Origin: Blautia massiliensis (ex Durand et al. 2017)
Lineage (GTDB): Bacteria; Bacillota; Clostridia; Lachnospirales; Lachnospiraceae
Length of the DNA stretch: 64,000 nucleotides
Direction: 5' to 3'
NCBI RefSeq assembly: GCF_001487165.1
Contig: NZ_LN913006.1
Span: 3,214,045 to 3,278,044 of the forward strand
Part shown: positions 1-18,465 of the stretch, piece by piece
How the letters are laid out: every line of letters begins with the position of its first letter
Numbering within the stretch: the stretch's first letter is position 1
Program-made: the position numbers and the translations under genes
Notes under the pieces: model-generated
What the model was told of the DNA's origin: nothing
Seen by the model: only the letters and a program-made list of their open reading frames with translations
Database searches by the model: none

Positions 1-699
1 GCAGCAGAGATTTATCGTATGTATGTAAAATACGCGGAGTCCCGCCGCTGGAAAACCGAGATGCTCAGCCTCAATGAGAACGGCATCGGCGGCTTTAAGG
101 AGGTTACCTTCATGATCAAGGGTGAGGGTGCATATTCCAGACTGAAATACGAAAGCGGTGTTCACCGTGTACAGCGAGTACCGGAGACAGAGTCCGGCGG
201 AAGGATCCATACCTCTACCTGTACGGTAGCGATCATGCCGGAGGCGGAAGAAATTGATTTCCATCTGGATCTCAATGAGTGTAAATTCGATGTGTTCCGT
301 GCATCCGGAAACGGTGGTCAGTGTGTCAACACCACAGACTCCGCAGTACGTCTTACTCATATCCCTACAGGAATCGTGATTTCCTGCCAGGATGAGAAGT
401 CTCAGCTTAAGAATAAGGATAAAGCACTCCGTGTGCTCCGTTCCCGTCTGTATGAGATGGAGCTTGCCAAGCAGCATGACGCTGAGGCAGAGGCAAGGAG
501 AAGCCAGATCGGTACAGGTGACCGCTCCGAGAAGATCCGTACCTACAACTTCCCTCAGGGACGTGTAACAGACCACAGGATCAAGCTTACCCTTCATCGT
601 CTTGAGAATATCCTTAACGGAGATCTGGATGAGATCATTGACAGTCTGATCGCAGCAGACCAGGCAGTAAAGCTGACAAAGCTGAATGAACAGGAGTAA
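1..699 (+). CDS. prfA: Peptide chain release factor 1 (5' truncated)
   Basis: This is the C-terminal two thirds of release factor 1, which reads UAA/UAG stop codons and triggers peptide release on the ribosome. The frame is open from base 1, so the true start lies upstream of the window. The GGQ catalytic motif is present in the context [19 protein letters not shown], followed by the RF-1 signature region; the residue after GGQ is Cys where many homologues have His or Ser. The C-terminal helical region ending in [12 protein letters not shown] is complete. A nucleotidyltransferase gene follows after 56 bp with its own strong ribosome site. Assignment to RF1 rather than RF2 rests on overall sequence similarity as recalled, since the codon-recognition PxT segment lies in the visible part only implicitly. 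Confidence 0.95.
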
Positions 700-755
700 G
701 CGCTGATTACAGCTACAGAGTTCAAAAAATTATAATAAATCAGGAGGAAACGAAA

Positions 756-1673
756 ATGAAAAAGACAGCACTGGTGATCATGGCAGCCGGTATCGGCAGC
801 CGTTTTGGAAAAGGAATCAAGCAGCTTGCACCGGTAGGCCCGAAGGGTGAGATCATTATGGACTATTCCATCCATGATGCACTGGAGGCAGGATTCAACA
901 AGGTCGTATTTATCATCCGCAAAGACCTTGAAGATGAATTCAAAAAAGTGATCGGAGACCGTATCTCCAACATTACAGAAGTTGCTTATGCATTCCAGGA
1001 GATCGACGATCTTCCGGGCAATTTTACAAAACCGGCGGACCGTACCAAGCCATGGGGAACCGGACACGCTGTACTGGCAGCAAAGAAAGTCCTTTCCGAG
1101 CCATTCGCTGTGATCAATGCAGATGACTACTACGGAAAAGAAGCCTACGTAAAGGTGCATGACTACCTGGTACAGGATCATCCGCAGGATGGCCCGATGC
1201 ACATCTGCATGGCAGGTTTCCGCCTTGGAAATACATTAAGTGACAACGGAAGCGTCACAAGAGGAGTGTGCCATATTGAGGACGGCAAGCTTGTGGGCGT
1301 TGCAGAGACACATAACATCTTCAAGACAGCAGACGGCGCAGAGACAAGAAATGACGATGGTACAGCAGAAACACTGGATACAAAGAGCCTTGTTTCTATG
1401 AATATGTGGGGACTGACACCGGAATTTATGGAGATCCTTGAGAAAGGCTTCGTTGAGTTCCTTGGCGGGATCAAAGAGGGAGACATCAAAAAAGAGTATC
1501 TTCTTCCTGAGCTTATCGACCAGCTGATCCATTCCGGAAAAGCAGCGGTAGATGTTCTTGAGACAAAGGACGAGTGGTTCGGTGTTACCTATCAGGAGGA
1601 TAAGGCATCTGTACAGGCTGCATTCAAAAAACTTACAGATGACGGCGTTTATCCGGAAGGACTGTATCAGTAA
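756..1673 (+). CDS. Sugar-phosphate nucleotidyltransferase family protein
   Basis: A 305-residue protein of the NTP-transferase superfamily. The N-terminal nucleotide-binding motif is MAAGIGSRFG (about residues 9-18) with a conserved Lys/Gln pair shortly after (GIKQLAPV), and an acidic metal motif NADDYYG near residue 122. These enzymes join a sugar 1-phosphate to a nucleotide with release of pyrophosphate; the exact sugar and nucleotide cannot be read from the sequence. The start has AGGAGG 8 bases upstream. glmM follows after 14 bp, suggesting one transcript and a link to activated-sugar supply for the envelope, but the protein is not a recognisable GlmU because no left-handed beta-helix acetyltransferase domain is present. 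Confidence 0.85.
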   Translation: MKKTALVIMAAGIGSRFGKGIKQLAPVGPKGEIIMDYSIHDALEAGFNKVVFIIRKDLEDEFKKVIGDRISNITEVAYAFQEIDDLPGNFTKPADRTKPWGTGHAVLAAKKVLSEPFAVINADDYYGKEAYVKVHDYLVQDHPQDGPMHICMAGFRLGNTLSDNGSVTRGVCHIEDGKLVGVAETHNIFKTADGAETRNDDGTAETLDTKSLVSMNMWGLTPEFMEILEKGFVEFLGGIKEGDIKKEYLLPELIDQLIHSGKAAVDVLETKDEWFGVTYQEDKASVQAAFKKLTDDGVYPEGLYQ

Positions 1674-1687
1674 TAAAGGAGAACATT

Positions 1688-3034
1688 ATGGGTAAATATT
1701 TCGGAACAGATGGTTTTCGTGGTGAAGCAAATGTAAAACTTACAGCAGATCATGCATTTCGTGTGGGACGTTATCTCGGCTGGTATTACGGCAGAGATCA
1801 CAAGGCGAAGATCGTGATCGGCAAGGATACAAGAAGAAGCAGTTACATGTTTGAGTATGCCCTTGCGGCAGGACTTACCGCATCCGGAGCAGATGCCTAT
1901 CTGCTTCATGTAACCACAACTCCAAGTGTATCCTATGTGGTACGTACAGAAGATTTTGACTGCGGTATCATGATTTCCGCAAGCCATAATCCGTTTAATG
2001 ATAATGGGATCAAGGTCCTTAATGAGAACGGACAGAAGATTTCCGCAGATATTGAAGCACGTATCGAGGCATATCTGGACGGCGAGATCGAGGAGCTTCC
2101 GCTGGCAACCGGAGAAGATATCGGCTGTACTGTGGATTTTGCATCCGGAAGAAACCGTTATATCGGACATCTGATCTCTATCCCATGCCATGATTTCAAA
2201 AATATCAAGGTTGGGCTGGATTGCTCCAACGGAAGCTCATCCGCCATTGCCAAGAGTGTTTTTGACGCACTTCGTGCAAAAACCTATGTGATCAACAATG
2301 AGCCAAACGGAACCAACATCAACCGTGGCTGCGGTTCCACACACATTGAAGTTCTGAGACAGTTCGTGGTAGATAAAGGCCTGGATATCGGTTTTGCATA
2401 TGATGGTGATGCAGACCGCTGTATCGCCGTAGACCACCGCGGAAACATCATTGACGGTGATAAGATCATGTATGTGTGCGGCAAATATTTAAGAGAGAAA
2501 GGCCAGCTCAACGGAAATACAGTTGTAACCACCGTTATGTCCAATCTTGGTCTTTACAAGTCTCTGGAGCGTGAAGGCATCGACTATGAGCAGACTGCAG
2601 TTGGTGACAAATACGTTGCCGAGAACATGATGGAAAACAATTACAGTATCGGTGGTGAGCAGTCCGGACATATCATCTTCAGCCGCTATTCTGCTACTGG
2701 TGACGGGATCCTGACTTCTCTTATGATCATGGAGGCATGTGTGGATCAGAAGGCCACACTCTGTGACCTTGCAAAGGAGATGAAGGTTTATCCGCAGCTT
2801 CTCCGGAATGTGCGTGTTTCCGACAAGAAAACAGCACTGGAGAACGAAAAGGTAAAAGCAGCCATTGAGGCAGCCGCAGAGGCACTTGGCGATGACGGAC
2901 GTATCCTGGTACGTGAGAGTGGTACAGAGCCGCTGATCCGTGTTATGGTAGAAGCGGGAACGGATGATCTCTGCCATAAATATGTAGATAGTGTTGTTGA
3001 TGTGATGGAAGCCGAAGGGCTTGTTGTAGAATAA
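1688..3034 (+). CDS. glmM: Phosphoglucosamine mutase
   Basis: GlmM interconverts glucosamine 6-phosphate and glucosamine 1-phosphate on the way to UDP-GlcNAc and peptidoglycan. The 448-residue length is typical. Visible landmarks are the N-terminal KYFGTDGFRG, the phosphoserine loop MISASHNPFND with the catalytic Ser near residue 99, the metal-binding loop AYDGDADRC, the sugar-binding loop GGEQSGHIIF and the phosphate-binding RESGTEPLIRVM near the C terminus. It sits 14 bp after the nucleotidyltransferase and 8 bp before the lipoprotein gene, so it is probably co-transcribed with both. A phosphomannomutase/phosphoglucomutase specificity is less likely given the FGTDGFRG start and the GEQSGH loop. 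Confidence 0.95.
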   Translation: MGKYFGTDGFRGEANVKLTADHAFRVGRYLGWYYGRDHKAKIVIGKDTRRSSYMFEYALAAGLTASGADAYLLHVTTTPSVSYVVRTEDFDCGIMISASHNPFNDNGIKVLNENGQKISADIEARIEAYLDGEIEELPLATGEDIGCTVDFASGRNRYIGHLISIPCHDFKNIKVGLDCSNGSSSAIAKSVFDALRAKTYVINNEPNGTNINRGCGSTHIEVLRQFVVDKGLDIGFAYDGDADRCIAVDHRGNIIDGDKIMYVCGKYLREKGQLNGNTVVTTVMSNLGLYKSLEREGIDYEQTAVGDKYVAENMMENNYSIGGEQSGHIIFSRYSATGDGILTSLMIMEACVDQKATLCDLAKEMKVYPQLLRNVRVSDKKTALENEKVKAAIEAAAEALGDDGRILVRESGTEPLIRVMVEAGTDDLCHKYVDSVVDVMEAEGLVVE

Positions 3035-3042
3035 GGAATTCC

Positions 3043-4101
3043 ATGAAAAAAACAAAGACCGTATTGATTCTTGCAGCCGTTACAGGAGCCTTGCTTCTGG
3101 GCGGCTGTGGCAGTGAAAAAACAAAAATATATGAACAGGCCGGAAAGGATCTTTCCCAGGGAAGCTACAAGTATGCCCTGGAGGAGTACCAGAGCTCTAT
3201 CCAGAACGGAGTGAAGCTGGCACAGTCCTATCGCGGGGCAGGTATCGCAAGCCTGCGTCTTGGCAAATATGAGGATGCGGTGAATAGCTTCACGGAAGCT
3301 CTGAACTGCGATAAAGTAAGCAAAAGCCTTCGTAAGGATATCCTGTCCTACCGGGCTACTGCAGAGCTGAAGTCTGGAAAATACGAGGATGCCATGGCAG
3401 ACTGCCAGACACTTGGAGAAGATTTTTCCATGGATGCAGGCAGTTATTTCCTCACCGGAAAGGTTGCCCTTGCCATGGATTCCTACGAAGAAGCCGCATC
3501 TAACTTCAAACAGGCCTATGGAGAAGATTCCACCTATGATATGGCGATCGAGATCTATGAGGCATATCTGGACAAGGATATGGAAGCGGACGGAACCAGA
3601 TATCTGGAAGCTGCTCTTTCTTCTGAGGCCAAGGATGCCCAGGACCACTGTGACAGAGGCCGTGTCTACTATTATATGGAAGACTACAGCAACGCAAAAA
3701 AAGAGCTTCTGGAAGCAACCAAGAAGGATAATACGGAAGCATTGCTTCTTCTGGGAATGGTATATCTGGCCCAGGATGATGTGGAAAATGCTCAGGCAAT
3801 GTACAAGCAGTATATTTCCGCAGTGGGTGATTCCGCCAAGGGCTATAATGGTCTGGCACTGTGCGATATCCGAAGCGGAGATTATGATTCCGCTCTTGAT
3901 AACATCACAAAAGGCCTTCCGACAGCTACCACAGACGAGATGCAGAGTCTTCTGTTCAATGAGATCGTAGCCTATGAGAAAAAGCTGGATTTTGCTACTG
4001 CACTGACCAAGGTCCAGGAATATATTGAGATGTTCCCTGAAGATTCCGCTGCAAAAAAAGAGCGGGCTTTCCTGAAAACCAGAACGTCTTCGGAGGGCTG
4101 A
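3043..4101 (+). CDS. TPR-repeat lipoprotein
   Basis: A 352-residue predicted lipoprotein. The N terminus is a short signal peptide with a clear lipobox LLGGC, Cys at residue 22, so it should be lipidated by Lgt (itself encoded at 50438) and face the outside of the membrane. The rest is made of tetratricopeptide-like helical pairs from about residue 35 to 340, seen as repeated patterns such as AYRGAGIASLRLGKYEDAVN and YYMEDYSNAKKELLEA. TPR arrays bind other proteins; no catalytic motif is visible and the partner is unknown. The gene begins 8 bp after glmM and its stop nearly touches the hflX start, so it belongs to the glmM-hflX transcript. Confidence 0.85.
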   Translation: MKKTKTVLILAAVTGALLLGGCGSEKTKIYEQAGKDLSQGSYKYALEEYQSSIQNGVKLAQSYRGAGIASLRLGKYEDAVNSFTEALNCDKVSKSLRKDILSYRATAELKSGKYEDAMADCQTLGEDFSMDAGSYFLTGKVALAMDSYEEAASNFKQAYGEDSTYDMAIEIYEAYLDKDMEADGTRYLEAALSSEAKDAQDHCDRGRVYYYMEDYSNAKKELLEATKKDNTEALLLLGMVYLAQDDVENAQAMYKQYISAVGDSAKGYNGLALCDIRSGDYDSALDNITKGLPTATTDEMQSLLFNEIVAYEKKLDFATALTKVQEYIEMFPEDSAAKKERAFLKTRTSSEG

Positions 4102-4102
4102 T

Positions 4103-5338
4103 ATGGAATATTTTGAGGAAATACAGGACAGGGTTATCCTGATCGGTGTCCAGGCAGATCGGGGGGATGATATGGAGGAATCCCTGGATGAGCTTGGAGA
4201 ACTTGCGGTTACGGCAGGTGCGGCGGTTGCAGGCAGGATCATTCAGAATCGTGAGGCCGTACATCCGGGCACCTATATCGGAAAAGGCAAGATCGAAGAG
4301 GTAAAAGGTCTTCTCTATGCCCTGGATGCCAATGGTGTGATCTGTGACGATGAGCTTTCTCCTGCCCAGATGAATAATCTGGAGCGGGAGCTGGAGTGCA
4401 AGGTTATGGATCGTACCCTGCTGATCCTTGACATTTTTGCGAAGCGTGCCGTCACAAGTGAAGGCAAGATCCAGGTAGAGCTTGCACAGCTTCGTTACCG
4501 GTCTGCACGTCTTGTGGGACTACGTTCTTCTCTTTCGCGACTTGGAGGAGGAATCGGAACCAGAGGCCCTGGTGAGAAAAAGCTGGAGACAGACCGTCGT
4601 CTGATCCGGAACAGGATATCCGCACTGAAGCAGGAGCTTTCCCAGGTAGAAAAGCACAGAGAGCTGATCCGTTCCAGAAGAGCTGTGGGAAATCTGAAGA
4701 CAGCAGCCATTGTTGGCTATACCAATGCAGGAAAGTCAACGCTTCTGAATACACTGACAGGCGCTTCGGTGCTTTCGGAGGATAAGCTGTTTGCCACACT
4801 GGATCCGACTACCCGTCTTCTGACGCTGGATGACGGACAGCAGCTTCTTCTTACGGATACCGTAGGCTTTATCCGCAAGCTTCCCCACAATCTGGTGGAA
4901 GCCTTCAAGAGTACCCTGGAGGAAGCCAAATATGCGGATTATATCATTCATGTGGTAGATGCATCCAATCCTCAGGCGGAGATACAGATGCATATCGTAT
5001 ATGAAACCCTGAAAGAGCTTGGTGCTCTGGGAAAAAAGACGATCACACTTTTTAACAAGCAGGACCGTGTTTCCGGGGAGAGTTTTCGGGATCTCCGAGC
5101 AGACCATACGCTGAAGATTTCCGCACGGACAGGAGAGGGGCTTGAGGAATTTAAGCAGCTTCTTTCTGAGATACTGGCAGAAGGACAGATTTATATGGAA
5201 CGGCTTTTTCCTTATTCGGAGGCCGGTCAGATCCAGCTGATCCGTGAGTATGGACAGCTTCTTTCGGAAGAGTATACCGAAGGAGGGATTGCTGTAAAAG
5301 CAAGAGTTCCGCGGGAAATCTATCCGAAAGTCACATAA
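4103..5338 (+). CDS. hflX: GTPase HflX
   Basis: HflX is a ribosome-associated GTPase that splits or rescues stalled and stressed ribosomes. The 411-residue protein has the N-terminal HflX domain (about 1-190) with GTYIGKGKIEEV and a Gly-rich linker GGGIGTRGPGEKK, then the G domain: G1 GYTNAGKST at residues 205-213, G3 DTVGFIRKLPH and G4 FNKQD. The start codon lies 1 bp after the lipoprotein stop, so translation is probably coupled. The next gene, nrdD, has its own promoter. Confidence 0.95.
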   Translation: MEYFEEIQDRVILIGVQADRGDDMEESLDELGELAVTAGAAVAGRIIQNREAVHPGTYIGKGKIEEVKGLLYALDANGVICDDELSPAQMNNLERELECKVMDRTLLILDIFAKRAVTSEGKIQVELAQLRYRSARLVGLRSSLSRLGGGIGTRGPGEKKLETDRRLIRNRISALKQELSQVEKHRELIRSRRAVGNLKTAAIVGYTNAGKSTLLNTLTGASVLSEDKLFATLDPTTRLLTLDDGQQLLLTDTVGFIRKLPHNLVEAFKSTLEEAKYADYIIHVVDASNPQAEIQMHIVYETLKELGALGKKTITLFNKQDRVSGESFRDLRADHTLKISARTGEGLEEFKQLLSEILAEGQIYMERLFPYSEAGQIQLIREYGQLLSEEYTEGGIAVKARVPREIYPKVT

Positions 5339-15912: not shown

Positions 15913-16058
15913 TGTTACTGTTCACTGGTAATATTCCGCGAGGTGTTTTTTGTGACCACAGGTCACAGAAAACCCGAGAATCTCGGCGCGAAATCATGCA
16001 AAAGCATGATTTCTGTGCATCGCGGAGCGTGTTGCTGGTCACGAAGTGAACAGTAACA
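15913..16058 (+). repeat. 146-bp cloverleaf-like palindromic element
   Basis: The ends are a perfect 14-bp inverted repeat (15913-15926 against 16045-16058, right arm AGTGAACAGTAACA). Inside are CCGCGA (15936-15941) against TCGCGG (16020-16025), and within that three hairpins: GTGACC-ACA-GGTCAC (15952-15966), CCGAG-AAT-CTCGG (15974-15986) and AAATCATGC-AAAA-GCATGATTT (15991-16012). The right-arm 14-mer recurs exactly at 35521-35534. It could be a structured leader RNA or a small dispersed repeat. The 496-bp gap 15626-16121 otherwise holds the dapF leader and the promoter. Confidence 0.8.
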
Positions 16059-16121: not shown

Positions 16122-16898
16122 ATGAAGAGAAAATTTATGGCACTTGCACTTGCAGCAGCTATGACAGTTTCTATGACATCCGCTGTTTTTGCAGCAGATG
16201 AGATCAAGAGCGCAGATGATCTGGAGGGTAAGAAGATCGGTGTTCAGCTTGGAACAACCGGTGATGCAGACGCTACAGAGGTTAAAGACGCAACAGTAGA
16301 GAGATACAACAAAGGTAATGACGCTGTTATGGCTCTGAAACAGGGTAAGATTGACTGCGTAGTGATCGACAGCGAGCCTGCTAAGAAATTTGTTGAGAAA
16401 AACGATGATCTTGAGATCGTTGAGGATATTTTTGATAAAGAGGAGTATGCAATCTGTCTTTCCAAAGATAATGCAGACCTTACCAAAGAGTTCAACGAAG
16501 CGCTGAAGGAGCTGAAGGATGACGGAACTCTGGATTCCATCAGAGATAACTACATCGGTGATGATGCAGGTAAGACACCGTATGAGACTCCTAAGGATGC
16601 AGATCACTCCAAGGGAACTCTTACCATGGCAACAAACGCAACCTTCCAGCCATACGAATACTATGACGGAGATAAGATCGTAGGTATTGATGTTGATATC
16701 GCTCAGGCTGTCTGCGACAAGCTTGGATATGAGCTGAAGGTCGAGGATATGGAGTTTGATGCGATCGTAAATTCTGTTAAATCCGGAAAAGCTGATTTCG
16801 GTGCTGCAGGAATGACAGTAACAGAGGATCGTAAAAAGAGCGTTGATTTCACTGATCCGTACACAACTGCAGAGCAGGTTGTTATTGTAAAGAAATAA
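16122..16898 (+). CDS. Amino-acid ABC transporter binding protein, circularly permuted
   Basis: A 258-residue family 3 solute-binding protein with a signal peptide ending VFA near residue 24 and no lipobox Cys. The order of its parts is reversed. Residues about 28-147 are what is normally the C-terminal half (IKSADDLEGKKIGVQLGTTG through VVIDSEPAKKF to ELKDDGTLDSI), then a linker about 148-163, and residues 164-258 are the normal N-terminal half (KGTLTMATNATFQPYEY, IVGIDVDIAQ, AGMTVTEDRKKSVDF) ending at the hinge EQVVIVKK. All usual ligand-contact motifs are present, so the fold is probably intact with new ends at the hinge. It is followed by a permease and a GlnQ-like ATPase; the substrate is a polar amino acid by family, exact one unknown. 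Confidence 0.9.
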   Translation: MKRKFMALALAAAMTVSMTSAVFAADEIKSADDLEGKKIGVQLGTTGDADATEVKDATVERYNKGNDAVMALKQGKIDCVVIDSEPAKKFVEKNDDLEIVEDIFDKEEYAICLSKDNADLTKEFNEALKELKDDGTLDSIRDNYIGDDAGKTPYETPKDADHSKGTLTMATNATFQPYEYYDGDKIVGIDVDIAQAVCDKLGYELKVEDMEFDAIVNSVKSGKADFGAAGMTVTEDRKKSVDFTDPYTTAEQVVIVKK

Positions 16899-16979
16899 TT
16901 TTGCACAGAGAAATCAGAGGATTCTGAACGGATAAGCTGAGAAACAGATATTCGTTGCAGGGTTCAGTAGCGAATGATC

Positions 16980-17021
16980 AGGTTCCGGATATCCGGGTAT
17001 GTTTTCCGGATTTCGGAACCT
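16980..17021 (+). promoter_or_regulatory. Intergenic stem-loop between binding protein and permease
   Basis: AGGTTCCGGATATCCGG pairs with CCGGATTTCGGAACCT nearly throughout, with a short loop. No proper T-run follows. Such hairpins after binding-protein genes often stabilise the upstream message or lower read-through, giving more binding protein than permease. Confidence 0.7.
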
Positions 17022-17045
17022 GTAGTTTTGGAAAGGGTGGAAATT

Positions 17046-17735
17046 TTGAGTCTTATTGAACAGTTTCAGTTTAACTTTCTGGACGACAATCGCTGGCAGT
17101 TCATTTTGTCCGGTCTGAAAAATACCATCATCATTACTTTTTTTGCTGTACTTCTTGGTATTTTTCTGGGATTTGTCATTGCTATTGTCCGTTCTACACA
17201 TGATAAGACAGGTAAGCTTAAGATCCTTAATGTGATCTGTCGTGTTTATCTGACTGTGATCCGTGGCACCCCAACGATGGTACAGCTGCTGATCGTATTT
17301 TATGTTATTTTTGCAACCATAGATCCGGGTAAGATAGTTGTTGCCATTATCGCCTTTGGTATGAACTCTGCTGCATACGTGGCTGAGATCGTCCGTTCCG
17401 GTATCATGTCTATTGATCAGGGACAGTTTGAGGCAGGACGGAGCCTGGGTCTTAACTATACACAGACTATGATCAAGATCATTCTTCCGCAGGCGGTCAA
17501 GAACATCCTGCCGGCCCTTGGAAACGAGCTGATCGTACTTTTGAAGGAGACATCCATCAGTGGTTATATCGGACTTATGGATCTGACCCGTGGCGGAGAC
17601 ATTATCCGAAGCCAGACCTACAGTGCACTGTTCCCGCTGCTGGTAGTAGCTGCGATCTATCTTGTGATCGTTTGCTTCCTTACCTATCTGGTAGGAAGAC
17701 TTGAAAGGAGGCTGAGAACCAATGAGCGTAAGTAA
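17046..17735 (+). CDS. Amino-acid ABC transporter permease
   Basis: A permease of the His/Glu/Gln/Arg/opine family, about 229 residues with five or so membrane helices and the cytoplasmic loop [20 protein letters not shown] that contacts the ATPase. I take TTG 17046 as start because GGGTGG lies 6-7 bases upstream; the upstream in-frame ATG 16974 would run through the 16980-17021 hairpin and has no ribosome site. Its end overlaps the ATPase gene by 14 bp. Confidence 0.88.
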
Positions 17736-18465
17736 TGAAGTGCTTCTGGATGTACAGGGACTTGAAAAGGCCTATGGCGGCAATCAGGTTCTCAACGGGA
17801 TCACCACACAGATCCGCAGAGGTGAAGTAGTAGCCATTATCGGACCATCCGGCTGTGGTAAATCTACATTCCTCCGTTCCCTGAATCTCCTTGAGGAGCC
17901 GACCGGGGGAAAAATCCTCTTTGAGGGAACCGACATCACAGATTCCAAGGTGGATATCAACCGTCATCGTCAGAAGATCGGAATGGTATTCCAGCAGTTT
18001 AATCTTTTTCCACATAAGACAGTAAAAGAGAACATTATGCTCGCACCTGTGACTCTGAATCTTATGAGTAAGGAAGAGGCTGAAAAAACGGCACTGGAGC
18101 TTCTGGAGCGAGTAGGTCTTCCGGATAAGGCAGATTCCTATCCGGACATGCTTTCCGGCGGTCAGAAGCAGCGTATCGCCATTGCAAGATCTCTTGCCAT
18201 GAACCCGGACGTGATGCTGTTTGATGAGCCTACATCTGCTCTTGATCCGGAGATGGTAGGAGAGGTCCTGGAACTGATGCAGGAGCTTGCAAGATCCGGC
18301 ATGACCATGGTTGTGGTAACTCATGAGATGGGCTTTGCCCGCGAGGTGGCAACCAGAGTCCTCTTCATTGATGAAGGAAAGATCCAGGAAGAAAATTCTC
18401 CTAAGGAATTCTTTGCAAATCCAAAGAATAAGAGACTTCGAGAGTTTCTTTCAAAGACATTATAA
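17722..18465 (+). CDS. Amino-acid ABC transporter ATPase, GlnQ-like
   Basis: A 247-residue ATPase of the polar amino acid uptake family: Walker [11 protein letters not shown]-loop [11 protein letters not shown], signature [15 protein letters not shown], Walker [21 protein letters not shown] and the switch [11 protein letters not shown]. It completes a binding protein-permease-ATPase operon and is closed by a strong terminator. Confidence 0.93.

Follow-up and report, generated by a model that had tools for sequence, protein, structure and literature searches.

A probable natural circular permutant of the family 3 amino-acid-binding proteins in Blautia massiliensis and its relatives

The gene at positions 16122-16898 of the window (the whole stretch of 64,000 nucleotides of Blautia massiliensis DNA that was analysed) very probably encodes the secreted binding protein of a polar amino-acid ABC importer in naturally circularly permuted form, a reading to which a probability of about 0.93 is assigned. 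The established part of this explanation comprises the order of the pieces, the cut site, conservation across many genera, the operon, a confident two-lobe structure prediction and purifying selection. An earlier note, prepared from the sequence alone, had proposed a natural circular permutant of a family 3 amino-acid-binding protein, and this proposal is borne out by swapped profile and structure matches, the two-lobe model, conserved motifs, a dN/dS of about 0.07 and an intact operon.

Parts of the protein and the order of its pieces

The open reading frame runs along the forward strand in a single frame of 258 amino acids and is directly preceded by a ribosome-binding-site-like sequence, aggaggaag. 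Its parts and the neighbouring features are as follows.

15914-16058, no strand assigned: hairpin repeat element of about 145 bp, just upstream of the gene and outside the protein (genome matches and folding)
16122-16193, + strand: signal peptide, residues 1-24, of the AVFA/A type, without a lipobox cysteine (translation, relatives' N-termini and lipobox pattern; cleavage site placed by eye)
16194-16439, + strand: lobe 2, residues 25-106, with GVQLGTTGD and with VVIDSEPA, which contains D83
16410-16460, + strand: long strand, residues 97-113, taken as the sole covalent crossing between the lobes (E73-89 of the model; ArgBP domain limits)
16440-16562, + strand: C-terminal segment of lobe 1, residues 107-147, up to the old C-terminus
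16563-16598, + strand: linker of 12 residues (148-159) from the old C-terminus to the old N-terminus (10-14 residues in 76/76 permuted units)
16599-16898, + strand: N-terminal part of lobe 1, residues 160-258 plus stop, with TMATNATFQPYEYY and with MTVTEDRKK, which contains R237; ends at the hinge strand
16974-17735, + strand: permease subunit, BPD_transp_1 (Pfam E 1.7e-23; the true start may be internal, e.g. the TTG at 17046)
17722-18465, + strand: ATPase subunit, ABC_tran (Pfam E 2.5e-40)

Translation and the Pfam matches thus agree with the earlier description of a single frame with a signal peptide and a permease and an ATPase downstream. The Pfam profile SBP_bac_3 (PF00497) matches the protein with an E-value of 4.5e-37 and 127.2 bits, against a curated cut-off of 26.4, and does so in two stretches, with profile positions 1-92 falling on residues 167-258 and positions 81-131 on the N-terminal part of the protein. 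Since the two parts of the profile appear in swapped order along the chain, the protein is a permuted variant of SBP_bac_3 as opposed to an ordinary member. Similarly, among the phmmer matches listed from the PDB, the chain starts of 4zv1 and 6svf align with residues 161-258 and their chain ends with residues 26-147, while 6h30, a tandem of two domains, is matched in three stretches, one of which crosses the domain junction; with E-values of ~1e-46 to 1e-50, the likeness to these chains is beyond chance. When a profile of 75 permuted units was compared with the PDB, 6h30 was the sole one-piece, near-full-span best match among the best 60 of 104, and the match ran from the end of the first normal-order domain into the start of the second, which is the order expected from duplication and trimming. 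An alignment of both halves in the usual order, named in the earlier note as an outcome that would speak against permutation, was not seen, the PDB and Pfam alignments both being swapped.

Some of the boundaries given previously require correction. The order of the halves, with residues 28-147 first and a lobe 1 half last, stands, but the halves do not coincide with the lobes, as residues 28-147 comprise lobe 2 (about 25-106) together with the C-terminal segment of lobe 1 (about 107-147). Lobe 1 is in fact contiguous (about 107-258); the cut falls at the first of the two hinge crossings, so that each lobe is contiguous and a single covalent crossing is left. The linker, formerly put at 16 residues (148-163), is 12 residues long by the profile boundaries, the longer version having taken in the first residues of the lobe 1 segment. 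By eye, the C-terminal VVIVKK258 followed by the mature N-terminus A25-DEIKSADDL reads like the hinge of the normal-order gene L075 (VVIVKE GSDIKTPDDL) with 0 residues lost or doubled; the cut looks clean, and the placement of the new ends at the hinge strand holds. The ligand motifs of both lobes are also retained, as had been claimed, with R237 and D83 occupying the conserved columns R213 (at least 90%) and D59 (invariant) of the 75 permuted units. We take the arginine of MTVTEDR (R237) and the aspartate of VIDSEPA (D83) to bind the carboxylate and amino groups of the ligand.

The structure prediction that the earlier note had suggested as a check returned a confident two-lobe model. AlphaFold2, supplied with the 75 permuted sequences, gave a pLDDT of 93.8 and a pTM of 0.86 for the window protein, and the two ten-residue blocks holding the linker averaged 89 and 95; single-sequence prediction without the alignment gave a poor model (pLDDT 42.2). 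The confident model is a prediction built from permuted sequences. Mature residues 1-82 of the model match the isolated domain 2 of Thermotoga maritima ArgBP (6gpm), and both pieces match T. maritima ArgBP in swapped order at 2.0-2.4 A, consistent with a two-lobe type II fold. The top-ranked Foldseek match was the GlnPQ tandem with a TM of 0.34, which is low because the alignment follows chain order. Structure matches along the whole length at about 10-20% identity were numerous, among them LysR effector domains and normal-order binding proteins, and are probably explained by the mutual likeness of the two lobes.

The chain passes through lobe 2, one hinge strand and lobe 1, the latter traversed from the old C-terminal segment through the linker to the old N-terminal segment, and stops at the hinge. 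The old C- and N-termini, which both lie in lobe 1, are joined through the conserved linker of about 12 residues. Both hinge strands would be retained, with only one covalently continuous, and the protein would be expected to work in the usual Venus-flytrap manner, shutting around an amino acid that residues from each lobe hold, and to dock onto the neighbouring permease. Rfam gave no match in the window at gathering thresholds, and hence no riboswitch hint as to the substrate.

Conservation, spread and alternative explanations

For analysis of related loci, 80 of 182 confirmed loci were taken, of which 63 are permuted and 16 are of normal order, the remaining one, L071, being truncated at a contig end. 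Four of the permuted loci are incomplete, L063-L065 beginning at a contig end and L060 being split into two frames. Named isolates with the permuted order include Blautia schinkii, B. luti, B. wexlerae and Lachnospira multipara. With the ruler by which the linker measures 10-14 residues in all 76 permuted units, the hinge is three residues in each of 17 normal-order genes (L001, L068-L070 and L072-L084); longer hinge insertions occur in some other normal-order genes, such as L108. Among 51 distinct unfused permuted genes, 49 encode proteins that end within 0-1 residue of one hinge position; the exceptions are L104, which is eight residues longer, and L054, which is cut by a contig end. A permease match accompanies 61, and an ATPase match 58, of the 63 permuted loci, and the missing matches all adjoin contig ends except for the ATPase of L061. 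In L040, L041 and L047 a gap of about 2.4 kb separates the permuted gene from the permease gene that follows it. The dN/dS of the window gene is 0.073 against a close relative from Blautia schinkii and 0.065 against one from B. luti; the gene is under purifying selection. Taken together, the gene appears to have what would be looked for in a natural circular permutant, namely cyclically shifted pieces with joined old ends, kept by selection and inherited across species.

The search for homologues with swapped halves, also suggested in the earlier note, revealed a widespread arrangement as opposed to a one-genome curiosity. The bacterial family was sampled with one genome per genus, 250 in all. 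Of these, 57 reach E 1e-50 or better, and in 53 of them the match is full-span with at least 286 bits, the four set aside (G320, G344, G450 and G486) being partial or second-type matches (see below). Full-span matches above 270 bits were found in 20 of 295 genomes sampled from the order, and E 1e-50 was reached in four of 398 genomes sampled from the phylum, including a permuted gene from outside the class (L138). These counts are lower bounds, since more divergent permuted genes, such as the arrays L088, L089, L099 and L100, fall below E 1e-50. The window genome also encodes two normal-order proteins, L001, which is permease-fused, and L002.

The swapped order could in principle be an artefact of assembly or frameshift, or a decayed gene in two fragments. 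Beyond the oddity of the order itself, nothing was found to favour this, whereas the single open frame with its signal peptide, the dN/dS of about 0.07 and the recurrence of this order in 63 of 80 loci, drawn from many assemblies, as well as in 53 of the 250 family genomes, all count against it. Indeed, because many independent assemblies agree on the swapped order, sequencing error is ruled out, as the earlier note had argued on other grounds, and artefact or decay is given next to no credence. A permuted protein that functions solely after domain swapping, as a dimer or oligomer whose chains trade lobes, is a more substantial yet still unlikely proposition: a single covalent crossing would let the lobes of two chains exchange, and the domains of T. 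maritima ArgBP have been solved separately in the PDB (6gpm, 6gpc), but the monomer model is confident, the linker included (pTM 0.86; linker blocks 89 and 95).

It is equally improbable that the protein has left transport and serves as a released amino-acid sensor or scavenger. Such a role would accord with the lack of a lipobox, which by a loose pattern is missing from 20 of 50 unfused permuted genes, the window protein included (21 of 51 with the cut L054), as against 1 of 34 normal-order genes and 0 of 18 second-type genes; bacteria of this kind have no outer membrane. However, the gene stands directly ahead of the permease and ATPase genes in a conserved order. The binding protein of an importer, permuted in nature, remains the favoured reading.

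Fused arrays, a second permutation type and origins

The distinct permuted genes comprise 51 single genes (the cut L054 included), 11 single permease-fused genes and 12 arrays, in which two, three or five permuted units precede the permease. Five units are found in L089, where a protein of 1527 amino acids (positions 74-4654, reverse strand) has a hydrophobic N-terminal stretch that by eye resembles an anchor, five permuted binding domains and a permease; if a dimeric importer is assumed, L089 would bear ten binding sites. One permuted fused gene, L067, is on a contig labelled Prevotella which, judged by kin, is possibly misbinned.

The register of the arrays is not decided by linker lengths alone, since the linkers at array borders are 5 to 20 residues long against 10-14 inside the unit, and the shortest (5-7) are near the normal hinge of three. 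Piece distances were compared for the 19 of 30 units that have a follower, and agree more closely between the two pieces of a permuted unit (r 0.93) than between pieces on either side of a unit border (r 0.63), as they do in two subfamilies (r 0.91 versus 0.39, and 0.95 versus 0.15). An arrangement of normal-order domains with loose ends was considered for the arrays and is thought unlikely, as co-divergence favours permuted units, and the permuted unit is provisionally taken as the unit of evolution there. Pfam scans of two arrays placed the best stretch on a normal-looking domain that straddles two permuted units; profile libraries can accordingly hide a permutation.

In a second type of permutation the cut is at the other hinge strand, with lobe 1 first and lobe 2 last, both contiguous. 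The proteins of L087 and L090-L098 begin with the old C-terminal segment of lobe 1, continue through the linker into the N-terminal segment of that lobe and finish with lobe 2. Loci of this type are L087, L090-L098 and L125-L134. A lipobox-like cysteine (by the loose pattern) is present in each of the 18 distinct second-type genes fetched, and a permease match accompanies every one of them; an ATPase match was seen for eight, the flanks retrieved for the other ten being short. The permease gene of L133 runs in the opposite direction. Full-span second-type matches of at least 221 bits occur in 24 of the 250 family genomes.

Two cut sites imply at least two rearrangements; both may have started from normal order, or one type may derive from the other. 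A tree of 67 rows places 23 of 29 window-type permuted rows in one clade (91/84); L043, L043F, L056 and L064 form a separate, firm group (100/100) whose place is not resolved, L059 and L104 lie elsewhere, and L087 stands apart from the other six second-type rows. AU tests of a single clade gave p-AU values of 0.275 for the window type, 0.247 for the second type and 0.189 for the normal-order rows; none is rejected as one clade. Quick trees of the halves, with few columns, settle little. The window type may have arisen when a normal-order domain was duplicated in tandem and the outer pieces were then lost, which the tandem binding domains of the wider family make plausible; no gene intermediate for this route was found among the loci examined.

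From these comparisons it seems likely that the family 3 fold has been permuted at least twice in one bacterial order, once at each hinge crossing, yielding the lobe 2-lobe 1 proteins of the window type and the lobe 1-lobe 2 lipoproteins such as L090, and that the two cuts are those that make both lobes contiguous. The window type would then have been fused to permeases and multiplied to as many as five units, and a layout of contiguous, singly hinged lobes whose chain ends lie at the hinge may have been favoured repeatedly and may alter closing and tethering.

Relation to known binding proteins

Normal-order family 3 proteins (SBP_bac_3; GlnH, T. maritima ArgBP and AncQR) are homologous to the window protein, share its ligand motifs and type of operon, and are up to 65% identical to it once it is re-ordered, the figure of 65% being reached with L074. 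They differ in that the window protein has its pieces swapped and its ends moved from lobe 1 to the hinge, has one covalent crossing in place of two, and has a conserved linker where the free ends would be. GlnPQ is described as having family-3-like domains in tandem, fused to the permease, each binding domain with two hinge crossings (PMC8025302). GlnPQ (PDB 6h30) therefore resembles the permease-fused permuted arrays in carrying family-3-like domains on the permease, but has two normal-order domains per chain, whereas the permuted units number one, two, three or five per chain.

Naturally permuted glycine-betaine-binding proteins have already been published (PMC2395249). OpuAC of B. subtilis (PDB 2b4l), which binds glycine betaine and thus a different class of ligand, has 14% identity to the window protein. 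The latter is far closer to normal-order family 3 proteins, for which reason the OpuAC permutation would appear to be a separate event. The profile of the Pfam family called OpuAC gave no match, a Pfam scan to E 1 returning SBP_bac_3, Lig_chan-Glu_bd, NMT1 and PNK3P only. In Treponema pallidum, TpMglB-2 is described as a natural permuted binding protein of an ABC importer that binds its ligand, glucose, and changes shape, with a Type I fold and a proposed Type Ic / Cluster Bc assignment (PMC4990184). On that description, strand order in TpMglB-2 is altered within the N lobe and a fourth crossing is added, whereas in the window type the crossings go from two to one.

The earlier note knew of no natural permutant described for this family in Lachnospiraceae. 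This holds for family 3 in so far as none was found in the open-licence literature, among the matches listed (title and start of abstract), an earlier description elsewhere being possible, but permuted binding proteins of other clusters are in print, as the TpMglB-2 and glycine-betaine examples illustrate. Novelty is consequently limited to family 3 and to the literature reached.

To our knowledge, natural circular permutants with close unpermuted relatives are uncommon. With permuted and normal-order proteins up to 65% identical and serving the same kind of operon, the family offers natural pairs for measuring the effects of chain order, such that the influence of one versus two covalent hinge strands on ligand affinity, closing speed and docking could be measured. 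Given its two cut sites and its arrays, the family also allows one to ask whether chain ends located at the hinge are favoured, and the permuted proteins could be ready-made permuted scaffolds for sensors.

The repeat at 15914-16058 has 33 matches in the window genome, itself included, of which 14 extend over at least 140 bases at 72-100% identity, and the 161 nt around it fold at -78.1 kcal/mol (z -9.4); it may be a mobile or regulatory element.
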